Positions 10,165 through 14,094 of a DNA stretch of 33,925 nt are shown here, one piece after another. Origin of the DNA: Candidatus Woesearchaeota archaeon (lineage in GTDB: Archaea; Nanobdellota; Nanobdellia; SCGC-AAA011-G17; ARS1403); the NCBI GenBank assembly GCA_018302505.1, contig JAGVZL010000020.1:659-34583 (forward strand). Reading direction: 5' to 3'. The notes under the pieces are model-generated. The model saw only the letters and a list, made by a program, of their open reading frames with translations. It had not been told where the DNA came from and did not search any database. Position 1 is the stretch's first letter; each line of letters begins with the position of its first letter. The translations under genes and the position numbers were made by a program.

Positions 10165-10247
10165 GCGGGAGTGCCAGAGCGGAAAATGGGTATGGCTAAG
10201 GACCATATGGCTTAGTGCCTACGCAGGTTCAAATCCTGTCTCCCGCA
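10165..10247 (+). tRNA. tRNA-Leu, apparent anticodon AAG
   Basis: A complete class II tRNA can be folded. The acceptor stem is GCGGGAG (10165-10171) with CTCCCGC (10240-10246) and discriminator A10247. The D stem is CCA/TGG. The anticodon stem is TATGG/CCATA with 7-nt loop CTAAGGA, giving anticodon AAG at 10198-10200. A long variable arm contains a GGC/GCC stem, and the T arm has loop TTCAAAT. The long variable arm and A73 indicate leucine. No CCA is encoded. An A at position 34 is very unusual in archaea, which normally read CUU with GAG. The tRNA sits between Rpo3 and an ATPase gene, where eL18 would normally follow. Confidence 0.93.
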
Positions 10248-10383: not shown

Positions 10384-10464
10384 ATGCCAGAAAATGATAT
10401 ATACAACAACAAAAGCAAATATGAATTTTTTGGGATTAATTCTATTTCAAGTTTCATTTCCTAA
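10384..10464 (+). CDS. Small ORF of 26 aa, possible truncated gene start
   Basis: ATG 10384 opens a 26-codon frame beginning MPENDIYNNKSKYEFFG and ending at TAA 10462-10464. A TATA-like CTTATAAAT lies at about 10350-10358, some 26-30 nt upstream, so a promoter-start pair exists. The composition looks like the N-terminus of a longer protein. It overlaps the convergent ATPase gene by 18 nt. It may be the stump of a gene truncated when the ATPase gene arrived. A tyrosine recombinase beginning is possible but cannot be shown from 26 residues. Confidence 0.35.
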   Translation: MPENDIYNNKSKYEFFGINSISSFIS

Positions 10465-11691
10465 AAGCCATTTCCATAAAGGAATGTATTTTATTTTTCC
10501 TTCTTCAACTTTGACTTCCCTTTCTTCGTTTTTTGTTATTAAAATGCCTTTTTTAACTTTAAATTTTTTCATGAATTCAGTTATGGATTTTAAGTTATCA
10601 GATTTTATTTTTTCCCGATATTTAATTTCAATTGGTGTGTTATTATGTATAACATCAACTTCATTTCCATTTTTCCAGAAAGAAGCGGCATTAATATTGC
10701 TTATGACTAAAGTTTCCACCATTCTTCCTAAAAAATCCTCTTCAATCTTGGATTTATATAAATAAGTAATGGCATTATCAGTAGGATACGCTCTTTTTCT
10801 CTTTCTTAAAGTTGTACTGCCTTTCCTGTAATTTCCTAGTAAATTAATTAGAAAACTTTCTTTTAAGTAGAAAATGTAATTTTTTATTACTCTTCTGTCT
10901 TTATTGAATTGCTTGCTTAATGACAAATAGTCTATATACATTCCAGGGTTTACCGCTATCATTTCTAAAAGTGTGCTTAAAAATTCAGGGTCATCCAATT
11001 TAAACATCCTTGGTATGTCTTTATACACGATTTTATCAACTACTAAAGACCTTATATATTCTTTAAATTCCTTATCTGTTTTAAAAGAGAATGTTTCTGG
11101 AAATCCCCCCTTTTCTATGTATTTTAATAAGAACGGTTTTATTTTTGTTTCATACTTAGATTCTATATTGTGTATTTTTAGATATTCTTTGAAAGTAAAT
11201 GTGCTTAAATTAAATTCAAAAATTCTTCCAGCCAATGTTTCTTTTGTTTTTTTCCTTATAAATAAAGATTCAGAGCCGGATATTATAAATTTAAGTTTTG
11301 GGTATAAGTCATAGTATTTTTTTATTTCATTTTCCCAGTTATTTAATTTTTGTATTTCATCAAAGAAAATATAGACTTTTTCCTCTCTAAAATCTTTTTT
11401 GTGTATTTCTTTATAGGTTTCTATAATTTCACTTATTTTTACATTATTTTCATCAAATGAGAAGAACAGTATATTTTCTGTTTTTGTTTTTTTAATTAAA
11501 TCTTTGATTAATTGATAAATTGTTGTGGTTTTTCCAACCCTTCTTAATCCTGTAATTGCTACTATAAATTTTTTATCTATATATTTTTCTATTTCTTTAT
11601 AATTATCCCTTTTAAAAGGTAAAGCTAATTCCGAGTCAACTTTTTCCTTTATCCACCAATGATTAAACTCCTCTAATTTTGCTTTTTCCAT
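10447..11691 (-). CDS. ATPase of the AAA_14/DUF4143 family
   Basis: The 414-aa protein starts MEKAKLEEFNHWWIKEK. It has Walker A GLRRVGKTT near residues 48-56, Walker B KVYIFFDEIQ near 109-118, sensor-like IISGSE, and a C-terminal DUF4143 region with a PD-(D/E)XK-like pattern (NEVDVIHNNTPIEIKYRE). These ATPases are widespread and mobile in archaea and genome-island DNA; their cellular role is poorly defined. The frame is open upstream to 11877, but ATG 11691 lies about 17-28 nt after a TATA-like CTTATAAATATAT, and the upstream stretch holds repeated ATGTACAT motifs, so 11691 is the better start. It lies opposite to and inside the ribosomal cluster between Rpo3 and eL18, which suggests insertion. 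Confidence 0.88.
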   Translation of the reverse strand: MEKAKLEEFNHWWIKEKVDSELALPFKRDNYKEIEKYIDKKFIVAITGLRRVGKTTTIYQLIKDLIKKTKTENILFFSFDENNVKISEIIETYKEIHKKDFREEKVYIFFDEIQKLNNWENEIKKYYDLYPKLKFIISGSESLFIRKKTKETLAGRIFEFNLSTFTFKEYLKIHNIESKYETKIKPFLLKYIEKGGFPETFSFKTDKEFKEYIRSLVVDKIVYKDIPRMFKLDDPEFLSTLLEMIAVNPGMYIDYLSLSKQFNKDRRVIKNYIFYLKESFLINLLGNYRKGSTTLRKRKRAYPTDNAITYLYKSKIEEDFLGRMVETLVISNINAASFWKNGNEVDVIHNNTPIEIKYREKIKSDNLKSITEFMKKFKVKKGILITKNEEREVKVEEGKIKYIPLWKWLLGNET

Positions 11692-11825
11692 ATGTACATC
11701 ATAATGTATATATTTATAAGCTTTATGGTCATTAGGATGTACATATTTTTTCATTATATAGAAGGGCATAACATATAAAAATTTCCATCTAAGAAATACT
11801 AACTTATGTACATCAGACTGTACAT
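11692..11825. repeat. Cluster of ATGTACAT palindromes upstream of the ATPase gene
   Basis: ATGTACAT occurs at 11692-11699, 11737-11744 and 11806-11813, with a near copy CTGTACAT at 11818-11825. A separate GACATATGTC palindrome is at 11851-11860. The first copy abuts the start codon at 11691 and sits between it and the TATA-like box. This is the layout of a repressor operator array. It could also be sites for DNA modification. Confidence 0.6.
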
Positions 11826-11877
11826 ATCTTTTCTTACTGTGTAATAAAGTGACATATGTCCCCATAAAATAGGTCAT

Positions 11878-12008
11878 AAGGGGTAATATAGGTAATTAGT
11901 TACTCTCAAATTATTATTTATTTTTGTCGTTGGGAAATAATTTCAGGATACTACATCCAGAAAAAATTTAGAAACATTTAAAAACCATTAATTTTACAAT
12001 ATTTTTAA
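11878..12008. promoter_or_regulatory. Intergenic DNA with promoter for the eL18 operon
   Basis: No ORF is seen here. A TATA-like element ACATTTAAAAACC (about 11972-11984) would place transcription start near 12000-12010, just at the 5' arm of the folded leader upstream of eL18. The rest is AT-rich without clear motifs. Confidence 0.45.
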
Positions 12009-12093
12009 CTCTGCGAGCTAACGCGCATAGTAGAGCTTGATTATTCTTCGAGCTTATGTGTGCTTATGTGTTTTGGTTAAATTTTTAGCAGAG
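12009..12093 (+). ncRNA. Structured 5' leader or small RNA upstream of eL18
   Basis: Three nested helices can be drawn: P1 CTCTGC (12009-12014) with GCAGAG (12088-12093); P2 CGCGCATA (12022-12029) with TATGTGTG (12055-12062), 8 bp with two G-U pairs; P3 AGCTTGA (12034-12040) with TCGAGCT (12048-12054), 7 bp and a 7-nt loop. P2 and P3 stack on the 3' side without a gap. GCTTATGTG is repeated at 12052-12060 and 12062-12070, so the second copy could compete for P2. The element ends 22 nt before the eL18 start, a position used by ribosomal-protein autoregulatory leaders. A free small RNA is the alternative. Confidence 0.5.
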
Positions 12094-12115: not shown

Positions 12116-12478
12116 ATGGTAAAAAGAACAGGACCGCAAACATTAGTTTTAAGGAACCTAATTAGAGAATTGAATACTTTAGGAAAGAAAAATAAATCTA
12201 ACTTATGGTTAAGAATTGCTAGAGATTTGGAAAGACCAACAAGAATTAGAAGGTCAGTTAATTTATATAAAATAGATAAATACACAAATGAAGGAGAAAC
12301 AGCTTTAGTACCTGGAAAAGTTCTAAGTGTTGGGGATTTAACTAAAAAATTAACAATCGCAGCTTACCAATTTTCAGGAAAAGCAGAAGAAAAAATCAAT
12401 AAAGTTGGAAAAGCAATTAAACTTCAGGAATTAATGAAAGAAAATCCAAAAGGGAAGAAAGTGAGGATTATAGGATGA
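12116..12478 (+). CDS. rpl18e: Large ribosomal subunit protein eL18
   Basis: This 120-aa protein matches eL18: MVKRTGPQTLVLRNLIRELN, LWLRIARDLERPTRIRRSVNLYKID, VPGKVLSVGDLTKKLTIAAYQFSGKA and the terminal KGKKVRIIG. It is archaeal/eukaryotic-specific and part of the 50S subunit, in the L15-like fold family. It leads a tight cluster with uL13 (4-nt overlap) and uS9. In most archaea it follows Rpo3 directly; here 2 kb containing a tRNA and an ATPase gene intervene, and eL18 has its own promoter and a folded leader. Confidence 0.97.
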   Translation: MVKRTGPQTLVLRNLIRELNTLGKKNKSNLWLRIARDLERPTRIRRSVNLYKIDKYTNEGETALVPGKVLSVGDLTKKLTIAAYQFSGKAEEKINKVGKAIKLQELMKENPKGKKVRIIG

Positions 12479-12888
12479 TAATTAACGGAGAAAATTTAAT
12501 TTTAGGAAGGTTGGCATCGATAGTTGCCAAGAAAGCATTATTAGGAGAAAAAATAGATATTGTAAATGCAGAGAAAGTAGTTATTGTTGGAGACAAAAGA
12601 ACAGTTTCAGCTAAATATATCCAAAAAAGAAATAGAACAACACATGTCAAAGGTCCATTTACTCCAAGAATGGCTGATAGATTTATGAGAAGAACAATAA
12701 GGGATATGTTGCCTTATAAAAAAGAGCGTGGAAAAAATGCTTTTAAGAAAATTATGTGTTACATTGGAACTCCAGATAACTTTAAAAATGAAAAAATAGA
12801 AACTTTTGATAATATAAATGTATTAAACACAGAGAATATTAAATTTATTACAATAGAAAAAGTTTGTAAAATAATGGGAAAACAATAA
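12475..12888 (+). CDS. rpl13: Large ribosomal subunit protein uL13
   Basis: The 137-aa protein matches archaeal uL13: MIINGENLILGRLASIVAKKALLGEKIDIVNAEKV, then FTPRMADRFMRRTIRDMLPYKKERGKNAFKKIMCYIGTP. uL13 is an early-assembling 23S rRNA-binding protein. ATG 12475 overlaps the eL18 stop by 4 nt and the stop shares 1 nt with the uS9 start, so translation is probably coupled. It is slightly shorter than the archaeal norm of about 140-150 aa but complete. Confidence 0.97.
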   Translation: MIINGENLILGRLASIVAKKALLGEKIDIVNAEKVVIVGDKRTVSAKYIQKRNRTTHVKGPFTPRMADRFMRRTIRDMLPYKKERGKNAFKKIMCYIGTPDNFKNEKIETFDNINVLNTENIKFITIEKVCKIMGKQ

Positions 12889-13292
12889 TGGCTAAAATTG
12901 TTAATACATCAGGAAAAAGAAAAAGAGCAATAGCAAGAGCAACATTAAAAGAAGGCAATGGTATAATAAGAATAAATAAATCATTATTGACTAATTATGG
13001 AAATCAATTGGCTAGAATGAGAATCCAAGAGCCGTTAGAAATCGTTAACGATGTCGCAGTAAAAGTAAATATTGATGTTAATGTTAGAGGGGGTGGATGG
13101 CAAAGTCAGGCCGAAGCTTCAAGATTAGCAATTGCAAGAGCTTTAGTAGAATACTCAAGAGGGGATAAAGTAAAGAAAGCTTTATTAGACTATGACAGAC
13201 ACCTTTTGATAGCCGATGTTCGTTTTAATGAATCCGCGAAGCCCAACGATTCTGGAAAGCCTAGGGCGAAGAGACAAAAATCGTATCGCTGA
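12888..13292 (+). CDS. rps9: Small ribosomal subunit protein uS9
   Basis: The 134-aa protein matches uS9: VNTSGKRKRAIARATLKEGNG, VNVRGGGWQSQAEASRLAIARALVEYS, and the conserved C-terminal PRAKRQKSYR whose terminal Arg reaches the P-site tRNA. ATG 12888 shares one base with the uL13 stop. Rpo10 follows after 65 nt with its own TATA-like box, so this is the last gene of the eL18-uL13-uS9 unit or is read through into Rpo10. Confidence 0.98.
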   Translation: MAKIVNTSGKRKRAIARATLKEGNGIIRINKSLLTNYGNQLARMRIQEPLEIVNDVAVKVNIDVNVRGGGWQSQAEASRLAIARALVEYSRGDKVKKALLDYDRHLLIADVRFNESAKPNDSGKPRAKRQKSYR

Positions 13293-13357: not shown

Positions 13358-13555
13358 ATGATAATTCCAATCCGTTGTCAGTCTTGTGGTAAGCCTGTAG
13401 GTCATTTGTATGAGAAATACACTAAAGATTTAGAAAAAGGTACAAAACCAAAAGAGGCTTTGGATAAATTAGGATTAGAAAGATACTGCTGCAGGGCTTT
13501 GTTCTTAGGTCATGTGGAATTATTAGATACAGTAGCTCAATTCAAAAGAAGCTAA
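13358..13555 (+). CDS. rpo10: DNA-directed RNA polymerase subunit Rpo10 (RpoN)
   Basis: This 65-aa protein begins MIIPIRCQSCGKPVGHLYEKY and has the zinc-binding set CQSCG plus YCCRALFLGHVELLD, the invariant pattern of Rpo10/Rpb10. It binds zinc and bridges Rpo3 and the large subunits. GCTTTTAAATC at about 13322-13332 lies 26-35 nt before the ATG and fits a leaderless promoter. Archaeal clusters usually continue with rpoK, eno and rps2. Here the next gene is convergent and unrelated, and eno and rps2 lie far downstream on the other strand. Confidence 0.97.
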   Translation: MIIPIRCQSCGKPVGHLYEKYTKDLEKGTKPKEALDKLGLERYCCRALFLGHVELLDTVAQFKRS

Positions 13556-14094
13556 ATACTTTGATTTTCTTCTTTCAATTGACTTCTTATTGCAAAATAA
13601 GCTCTTTTTCTTAATTTTCTTCTTTCATATCTGCCAGATAAATCTCCCAACTCTACTAAATAAGAATCCCTTCTCATCCCTACTTCCGCACCAATAGTTC
13701 TGTCTGAAAGATAATTTTGAACCGTATTATTGACTTGGCCTTCAAATTCCCCATCACTTAATAATCCTCTATCATAAGCACTGCGAATCCTTCTATAAAC
13801 AATTACAAAATCAGCATGTAAATCATCTAAATTTCTACCATTAGAGTGCATTATCCTCAACTTAGCTCTCCTCATTTCAGCTTGTTCAGGAGTATCAATT
13901 AATAATTTTTCATCAGTAGGAGCCAATAAAGCATCGACCTCATCTTGGGATAGTGCTTCTCTTGTTCCATGGTCAGATGTAGCATAAAGAAGAGCCTCTA
14001 TTTCATCCCCTGATAGGGTATATTCAGTTCCTCTAGCCTCACCAGCAATACTTCTGATAACTCTTTCACTTGGTCTATTTACTACTTTAGCCAT
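13552..14094 (-). CDS. Orphan protein with two FliM-like LSxDE[IV]xALL motifs
   Basis: I do not recognise this 180-aa protein. Residues 27-36 read LSGDEIEALL and residues 48-57 read LSQDEVDALL, both very close to the N-terminal motif of bacterial flagellar switch proteins FliM/FliY that binds CheY. The rest is helical and charged (residues 70-180) with no FliM/SpoA domain. No chemotaxis or archaellum genes lie nearby, so the match may be convergence on an amphipathic helix. A TATA-like TTTATATTAG on the minus strand at about 14116-14125 precedes ATG 14094 by 22-31 nt. The 3' end overlaps the convergent Rpo10 gene by 4 nt. It is cytoplasmic by prediction. Confidence 0.7.
   Translation of the reverse strand: MAKVVNRPSERVIRSIAGEARGTEYTLSGDEIEALLYATSDHGTREALSQDEVDALLAPTDEKLLIDTPEQAEMRRAKLRIMHSNGRNLDDLHADFVIVYRRIRSAYDRGLLSDGEFEGQVNNTVQNYLSDRTIGAEVGMRRDSYLVELGDLSGRYERRKLRKRAYFAIRSQLKEENQSI

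Follow-up and report, generated by a model that had tools for sequence, protein, structure and literature searches.

A candidate two-state RNA leader at the head of the eL18-uL13-uS9 operon in uncultured archaea

Introduction

In the Woesearchaeota DNA analyzed here (a stretch of 33,925 nucleotides, hereafter the window), the region in front of the ribosomal protein gene eL18 is predicted to fold stably, which raises the questions of whether the mRNA opens with a regulatory RNA, which part of that RNA is kept among relatives, and how it could act. An earlier note on this DNA had proposed a folded leader consisting of three nested helices (P1, P2, and P3), with a repeated sequence that could switch between two folds. 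Cis-regulatory RNAs, whether known or predicted, are very scarce in archaea, and we found none for DPANN in the open-licence literature.

The genes downstream of the leader in the window were identified with Pfam as eL18, the first gene of the operon (positions 12116 to 12478; Ribosomal_L27A, 31.7 bits), uL13 (12475 to 12888; Ribosomal_L13), and uS9 (12888 to 13292; Ribosomal_S9), all on the plus strand, followed by RpoN. A 180-amino-acid open reading frame (ORF) on the minus strand downstream of RpoN (13555 to 14094) had no Pfam match. On the other side of the leader, an AAA_14/DUF4143 ATPase gene (10450 to 11877, minus strand) is situated between eL18 and a tRNA-Leu gene identified with Rfam (10165 to 10247); in many relatives, RpoD, tRNA-Leu, and eL18 are side by side.

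A conserved hairpin at the predicted 5′ end of the mRNA

When the upstream DNA of relatives was lined up, a block of about 29 nt (aactctgcgagctaacgcgcatagtagag) was seen just 5′ of eL18; the near relatives are deposited as Nanoarchaeota or Woesearchaeota metagenome assemblies. In the window, this conserved element is a hairpin of 27 nt (hairpin 1; positions 12009 to 12035, plus strand), which reads CUCUGC (12009 to 12014)/GA/GC-UAAC-GC/GCAUA/GUAGAG (12030 to 12035) and lies within a covariance-model match of 46.5 bits at 12006 to 12035. Its stem is a 6-bp helix (CUCUGC/GUAGAG) followed by an asymmetric internal loop, with 2 nt (RA) facing 4 to 6 nt (usually G...A; RA/GNNNA), and then by a 2-bp G[CU]/GC helix, and the tip is usually a UAAC or GNRA loop, the GNRA class counting GCAA, GAAA, and GUAA. 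In three leaders (L189, L192, and L198), something longer, either a loop or a stem, stands in place of the 4-nt tip; in L192, for instance, it reads UAAACC-UCU-GGUUA. This replacement favors reading the apical part as a genuine hairpin. One leader (L183, in genome G555) has a second, degenerate copy of hairpin 1 (ATCTGCGAGCGATAAGGCGCTCACAGGT) in tandem directly upstream of the first.

Hairpin 1 is predicted to lie at the very start of the transcript. A TATA box in the window (TTTAAAAA; 11977 to 11984, plus strand) has its center 28 nt upstream of the hairpin and predicts a transcription start at about 12007 to 12009, and a TATA match of at least 7 of 8 positions, centered 25 to 28 nt before the first base of hairpin 1, was present in 34 of the 38 leaders checked. 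Given the usual archaeal TATA-to-start spacing, this distance suggests that hairpin 1 begins at the first transcribed nucleotides.

Three successive covariance models (R1, R2, and R3) were run over whole genomes, mostly fragmented assemblies, blind to the positions of genes. Hairpin 1 was found in 52 genomes belonging to two lineages of one class of small, poorly known archaea, and in all 52 it is upstream of eL18, which is the first ribosomal protein gene downstream in every case. Within the order of the window genome, it occurs in 15 of 103 genomes, at one site per genome and upstream of eL18; the window genome likewise has a single copy. In the second lineage, a family-level group (f23), the element immediately precedes eL18, on the strand of that gene, in 8 of 8 matches with R1, in 24 of 25 places detected with R2, and, among the additional matches from R3, in 13 of 13. 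Matches outside these two groups were few and weak, and none adjoined eL18. Four candidates (L162, L167, and L168, with R1 E values of 0.012 to 0.038 that are rough, as are all E values of these models, and L185) were taken as noise because they are not beside eL18. Most eL18-containing genomes of the order, among them three from the family of the window genome, are without the motif, which is thus dispensable.

The 48 distinct sequences of hairpin 1 indicate that it is an RNA structure backed by covariation. Standard pairs make up 97.8% of pair cells, the covariation score is above those of all shuffles, and cells in which both bases have changed number 15, compared to 5.1 in shuffled alignments (none of 500 shuffles was as high), while shifting the pairing partner lowers pairing to 18 to 62%. 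The outer pairs vary among C-G, U-A, and A-U, or between U-A and C-G, and the inner pairs vary through G-U. A structured RNA leader in front of eL18, as the earlier note had envisaged, is thereby borne out by a conserved, covarying hairpin in 52 genomes.

A second hairpin that draws on the same strand

In almost all relatives, the 3′ strand of hairpin 1 (GURGR) has a second pairing partner farther downstream. In the window, this shared strand is GUAGAG (12030 to 12035, plus strand), which pairs with 12009 to 12014 in one fold (state A) and, through its 3′ half only (GAG), takes part in a second hairpin in the other (state B). This hairpin 2 (12033 to 12055, plus strand), formed by GAGCUUGA (12033 to 12040) and UCGAGCUU (12048 to 12055) with predicted pair probabilities of 0.95 to 1.0, is the P3 helix of the earlier note. 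Among relatives, the shared strand varies (GUAGAG, GUAGGA, GUGGGA, GCAGGA, GCGGGA, and others), and the rest of hairpin 2 is without conserved sequence, as in GAGCAC/GUGUUC, GAGUAAAC/GUUUACUU, and GUGGGAG/CUUCUAC.

Hairpin 2 was scored as present when at least four of the five core bases of the shared strand were paired downstream in the minimum fold, with shuffled downstream sequence as the null. By this measure, it was present in 36 of 39 leaders (19.5 expected), in 33 of 36 after removal of similar leaders (18.5 expected), and in 46 of 51 overall (23 expected). Because the sequences are related, combined P values overstate the strength of this result, and fairer measures are a swap test and the leaders that came to light only once the hypothesis existed. 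Hairpin 2 was present in 10 of the 12 late-found leaders, compared to 3.3 expected, a conservative figure since two of the 12 had been ended early at an internal ATG. In the swap test, hairpin 2 was more stable with its own shared strand than with a foreign one (−9.15 versus −6.76 kcal/mol; P = 6e-8). Further, position 2 of the shared strand forms U-A (25 cases), C-G (14), and U-G (5) pairs in hairpin 2 and never C-A. Hairpin 2 has a variable but co-adapted sequence and is a second covarying pairing, and since both hairpins draw on the same bases, they are mutually exclusive. Covariation in relatives, which the earlier note had put forward as a check, was thus found for both hairpins.

A conserved block at a fixed distance of 25 to 28 nt from the TATA box, which is also an imperfect inverted repeat, might instead be a DNA element, such as an operator or a downstream promoter element bound by a transcription factor. 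The pattern of change suits RNA better: pairing is preserved through G-U (counts of G-U 29, G-C 18, and A-U 1; of U-A 31 and U-G 17), which keeps an RNA helix and not a DNA palindrome; the tip alternates between UAAC and GNRA or gives way to the longer loops and stems described above; and hairpin 2 has changed in step with the shared strand. We consider a DNA element very improbable and read the block as RNA.

Folding of the complete leader in the window

The nested-helix fold of the earlier note does exist as a prediction: positions 12009 to 12093 (plus strand) fold to −28.2 kcal/mol, compared to a shuffled mean of −19.3 (z = −3.3; none of 200 shuffles was as good), and the eL18 ATG at 12116 follows 22 nt after 12093. 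In the window genome, this region is what the completed leader is predicted to refold into (state B): CUCUGC at the 5′ end, freed once hairpin 2 has formed, pairs with GCAGAG (12088 to 12093, plus strand) to form P1, with probabilities above 0.98 in the whole leader. By nearest-neighbor estimates at 37°C, which apply to all folding energies given here, the finished leader reaches −29.5 kcal/mol, versus −19.2 with hairpin 1 forced. Nascent folding is predicted to hold hairpin 1 until transcription reaches about 12051, with hairpin 2 forming next, P2 from about 12078, and P1 at 12093. An ORF of 10 codons (MCAYVFWLNF; 12056 to 12088, plus strand) is located within the leader, and we noticed no counterpart in other leaders.

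As a conserved structure, the P1-P2-P3 domain does not hold up, since the conserved part is the local hairpin at 12009 to 12035, which was absent from the earlier description. The idea of a switch fares better: two exclusive folds are indeed kept among relatives, but the strand that switches is GUAGAG (12030 to 12035) rather than GCTTATGTG, the repeated sequence invoked before. That sequence is present twice, as stated (12052 to 12060 and 12062 to 12070), and yet neither it nor P2 was found in relatives, even those of the same family. Of the three helices, P3 is the conserved hairpin 2, P1 can form in a minority of leaders, and P2 was seen in this genome only. A single P1-P2-P3 domain switched by the repeat is the predicted minimum fold for this genome, and GCAG, complementary to the 5′ arm, occurs after hairpin 2 in 7 of 39 leaders, compared to 0.8 expected and 0 to 2 for other orders of the same letters; the lack of P2 and the repeat in relatives, together with the fact that most leaders are too short for P1, leaves us giving that model hardly any weight. 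On the two-hairpin reading, the recurrence of GCAG after hairpin 2 suggests that P1 could serve, in some lineages, to lock state B in place.

Proposed mechanism and ligand

We suggest that the leader is most likely a new autogenous ribosomal-protein leader. The following model would apply. The first 30 or so nucleotides of the nascent mRNA would fold into hairpin 1, and about 20 nt later hairpin 2 would take over the 3′ strand of hairpin 1, freeing the 5′ end of the mRNA; in the window genome, P1 would then lock the freed 5′ arm. A free protein of the operon, most likely uL13 or eL18, would bind nascent hairpin 1 and hold the 5′-end fold, lowering expression, whereas hairpin 2 would form in the absence of free protein and the mRNA would be translated. 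Such a built-in switch would probably let the cell halt the making of surplus ribosomal parts. That the mRNA opens with a two-state leader and that capture of nascent hairpin 1 by an operon protein lowers expression is the reading that we favor, with somewhat better than even confidence.

The sequences themselves show where the element lies, that it is tied to the operon, and that its two pairings covary and exclude each other. Conserved sequence is confined to hairpin 1, making it the likely recognized part, and only pairing is conserved in hairpin 2, making that hairpin the likely competitor that undoes it. Hairpin 1 stands in front of eL18, uL13, and uS9, and the best explanation, by analogy with other ribosomal-protein leaders, is that one of the operon's proteins is its partner. 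As hairpin 1 is about 10 kcal/mol worse in the finished window leader, capture would have to be cotranscriptional.

The identity of the ligand is a matter of judgment. Eckert and Weinberg recommend picking a protein with an established role as a leader ligand and consider the first gene a weak choice (PMC7247131). By this rule uL13 is favored, though at less than an even chance, with eL18 close behind, some other ligand improbable, and uS9 slightly more so. In the leaders examined, uL13 is downstream of eL18 in 39 of 39, and uS9 comes after uL13 in nearly all leaders with enough downstream sequence. A choice between ligands from operons in which uL13 is apart from eL18 fails: in six leaders, the two genes are separated by an additional ORF on the same strand, which leaves the operon unbroken. 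Three of these (L160, L161, and L164) share an inserted gene of about 180 amino acids (in L160, ...LEVNLDRLAEFIADAKK...YDGFYQAPG...), and the other three (L145, L146, and L157) have apparently unrelated short ORFs of about 60 to 90 amino acids.

We looked for mimicry of rRNA in the 16S and 23S rRNAs of the carriers by local alignment, a structural descriptor, and an unfiltered covariance model, and found weak or chance-like matches only. A stretch of 23S domain I (GCGAGCGAAAGC) and the 3′-terminal hairpin of 16S rRNA (GUAGG/CCUGC) have short words in common with hairpin 1 in another order and context and were judged to be chance. The absence of an rRNA look-alike for hairpin 1 counts against a ribosomal protein as the ligand, although such mimicry is not universal among ribosomal-protein leaders (PMC7247131). 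A k-turn, which calls for a 3-nt bulge and then tandem G-A/A-G pairs, was also rejected, as the longer strand of the internal loop is variable in length and its final A is preceded by G in just 3 of 39 leaders.

A reading with no ligand at all deserves mention here. Hairpin 1 begins at the predicted first nucleotide and could be a 5′-terminal stabilizer against 5′-to-3′ decay, tuned by hairpin 2; 5′-end-dependent decay and 5′-end protection have been described in Sulfolobus (PMC3792030, PMC3936769). A hairpin that acts through stability alone would have no need of a conserved loop (RA, G..A, and a UAAC or GNRA tip) and would be expected on other genes as well, whereas we observed one copy per genome and always on eL18. 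We regard this reading as doubtful and retain capture by an operon protein as the preferred one.

With regard to the step controlled, we infer that the leader acts on translation or on the stability of the mRNA and not through termination. An intrinsic terminator is unlikely, since no U run follows hairpin 2 in most short leaders, although a few long ones have such a run, and masking of a Shine-Dalgarno site is unlikely, since a Shine-Dalgarno-like 4-mer at −16 to −4 was present in only 2 of 37 leaders. Pairing of the hairpin 1 loop with the region before the AUG was seen by eye in a few leaders and is not general.

The repressive sign of the effect is likewise our reading, and the opposite is conceivable: hairpin 2, lying where the 30S subunit lands on short leaders, would be an OFF state, and expression would be turned on by a ligand stabilizing hairpin 1. 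The distance of 24 to 35 nt from the shared strand to the AUG in most leaders puts hairpin 2 about 10 to 16 nt before the AUG in short leaders, which is what makes this sign possible. In 27 short leaders, accessibility at −20 to −9 drops from 0.50 to 0.32 in state B, although the state energies behind this comparison are rough, as 40 nt of coding sequence was included and the freed 5′ arm was left unpaired in state B. However, accessibility at −8 to +12 is no lower in state B, and in ten leaders with a gap of 47 to 92 nt, hairpin 2 is far from the AUG and accessibility there is unchanged. Further, ribosomal-protein feedback normally represses. We consider activation unlikely and keep repression through capture of hairpin 1.

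In its most specific form, the proposal is one of strand exchange that senses a ribosomal protein during transcription, at the 5′ end of an mRNA with no clear Shine-Dalgarno site or terminator, such that capture of the 27-nt hairpin determines whether translation or decay finds the 5′ end open. We advance it tentatively, at rather less than even confidence; if true, it would be a mode of control undescribed for archaeal ribosomal proteins in the papers that we found.

Relation to known systems

With Rfam 15, which includes families of known ribosomal-protein leaders, tRNA-Leu was the only match above gathering score over the window; for the leader in the window, the best matches (E = 2 and 3.9) were to unrelated families, and no family of the bacterial L13 leader kind matched even at E = 10. 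The earlier note knew of no precedent for a leader of eL18, uL13, or uS9, and our search agrees with it, in that no Rfam family or open-licence paper was found that covers the eL18 leader. What appears to be new, judging from comparative data, is a ribosomal-protein leader in which a strand exchange between two states is conserved. Being small and having two covarying states in at least 52 genomes, it makes control of ribosome synthesis testable in uncultured, Shine-Dalgarno-poor archaea, and such testing is feasible with short synthetic RNAs and purified proteins.

The closest counterparts by approach are the four archaeal ribosomal-protein leaders added in 2020, none of which is for eL18 or for these lineages (PMC7247131). 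Those leaders (S15 in Halobacteria and in Methanomicrobia, eL15, and L4) are likewise covarying 5′-untranslated-region RNAs of archaeal ribosomal-protein operons and, like the eL18 leader, were predicted by comparative genomics; they belong to other genes and lineages, and eL18, uL13, DPANN, and Woesearchaeota are unmentioned in that work (PMC7247131). A protein-induced switch in an archaeal ribosomal-protein leader has been shown experimentally for L7Ae (PMC6298567). Its kink-turn leader is an archaeal ribosomal-protein mRNA leader refolded by its own product (PMC5539422, PMC6298567), as the eL18 leader would be if it is bound as we infer. The L7Ae leader combines a k-turn with otherwise unstructured RNA, whereas the eL18 leader has two alternative hairpins and no k-turn consensus.

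In bacteria, the uL13-uS9 pair is under the control of an RNA leader, the L13 (rplM-rpsI) leader. The same pair lies behind the leader described here, although the first gene is the archaeal/eukaryotic eL18. Finally, the eL18 leader resembles bistable riboswitches and attenuators, in which a shared strand picks one of two hairpins during transcription, and differs from them in being without an apparent terminator or Shine-Dalgarno sequestration. It also offers a clean example of two helices that exclude each other and are nevertheless both conserved.
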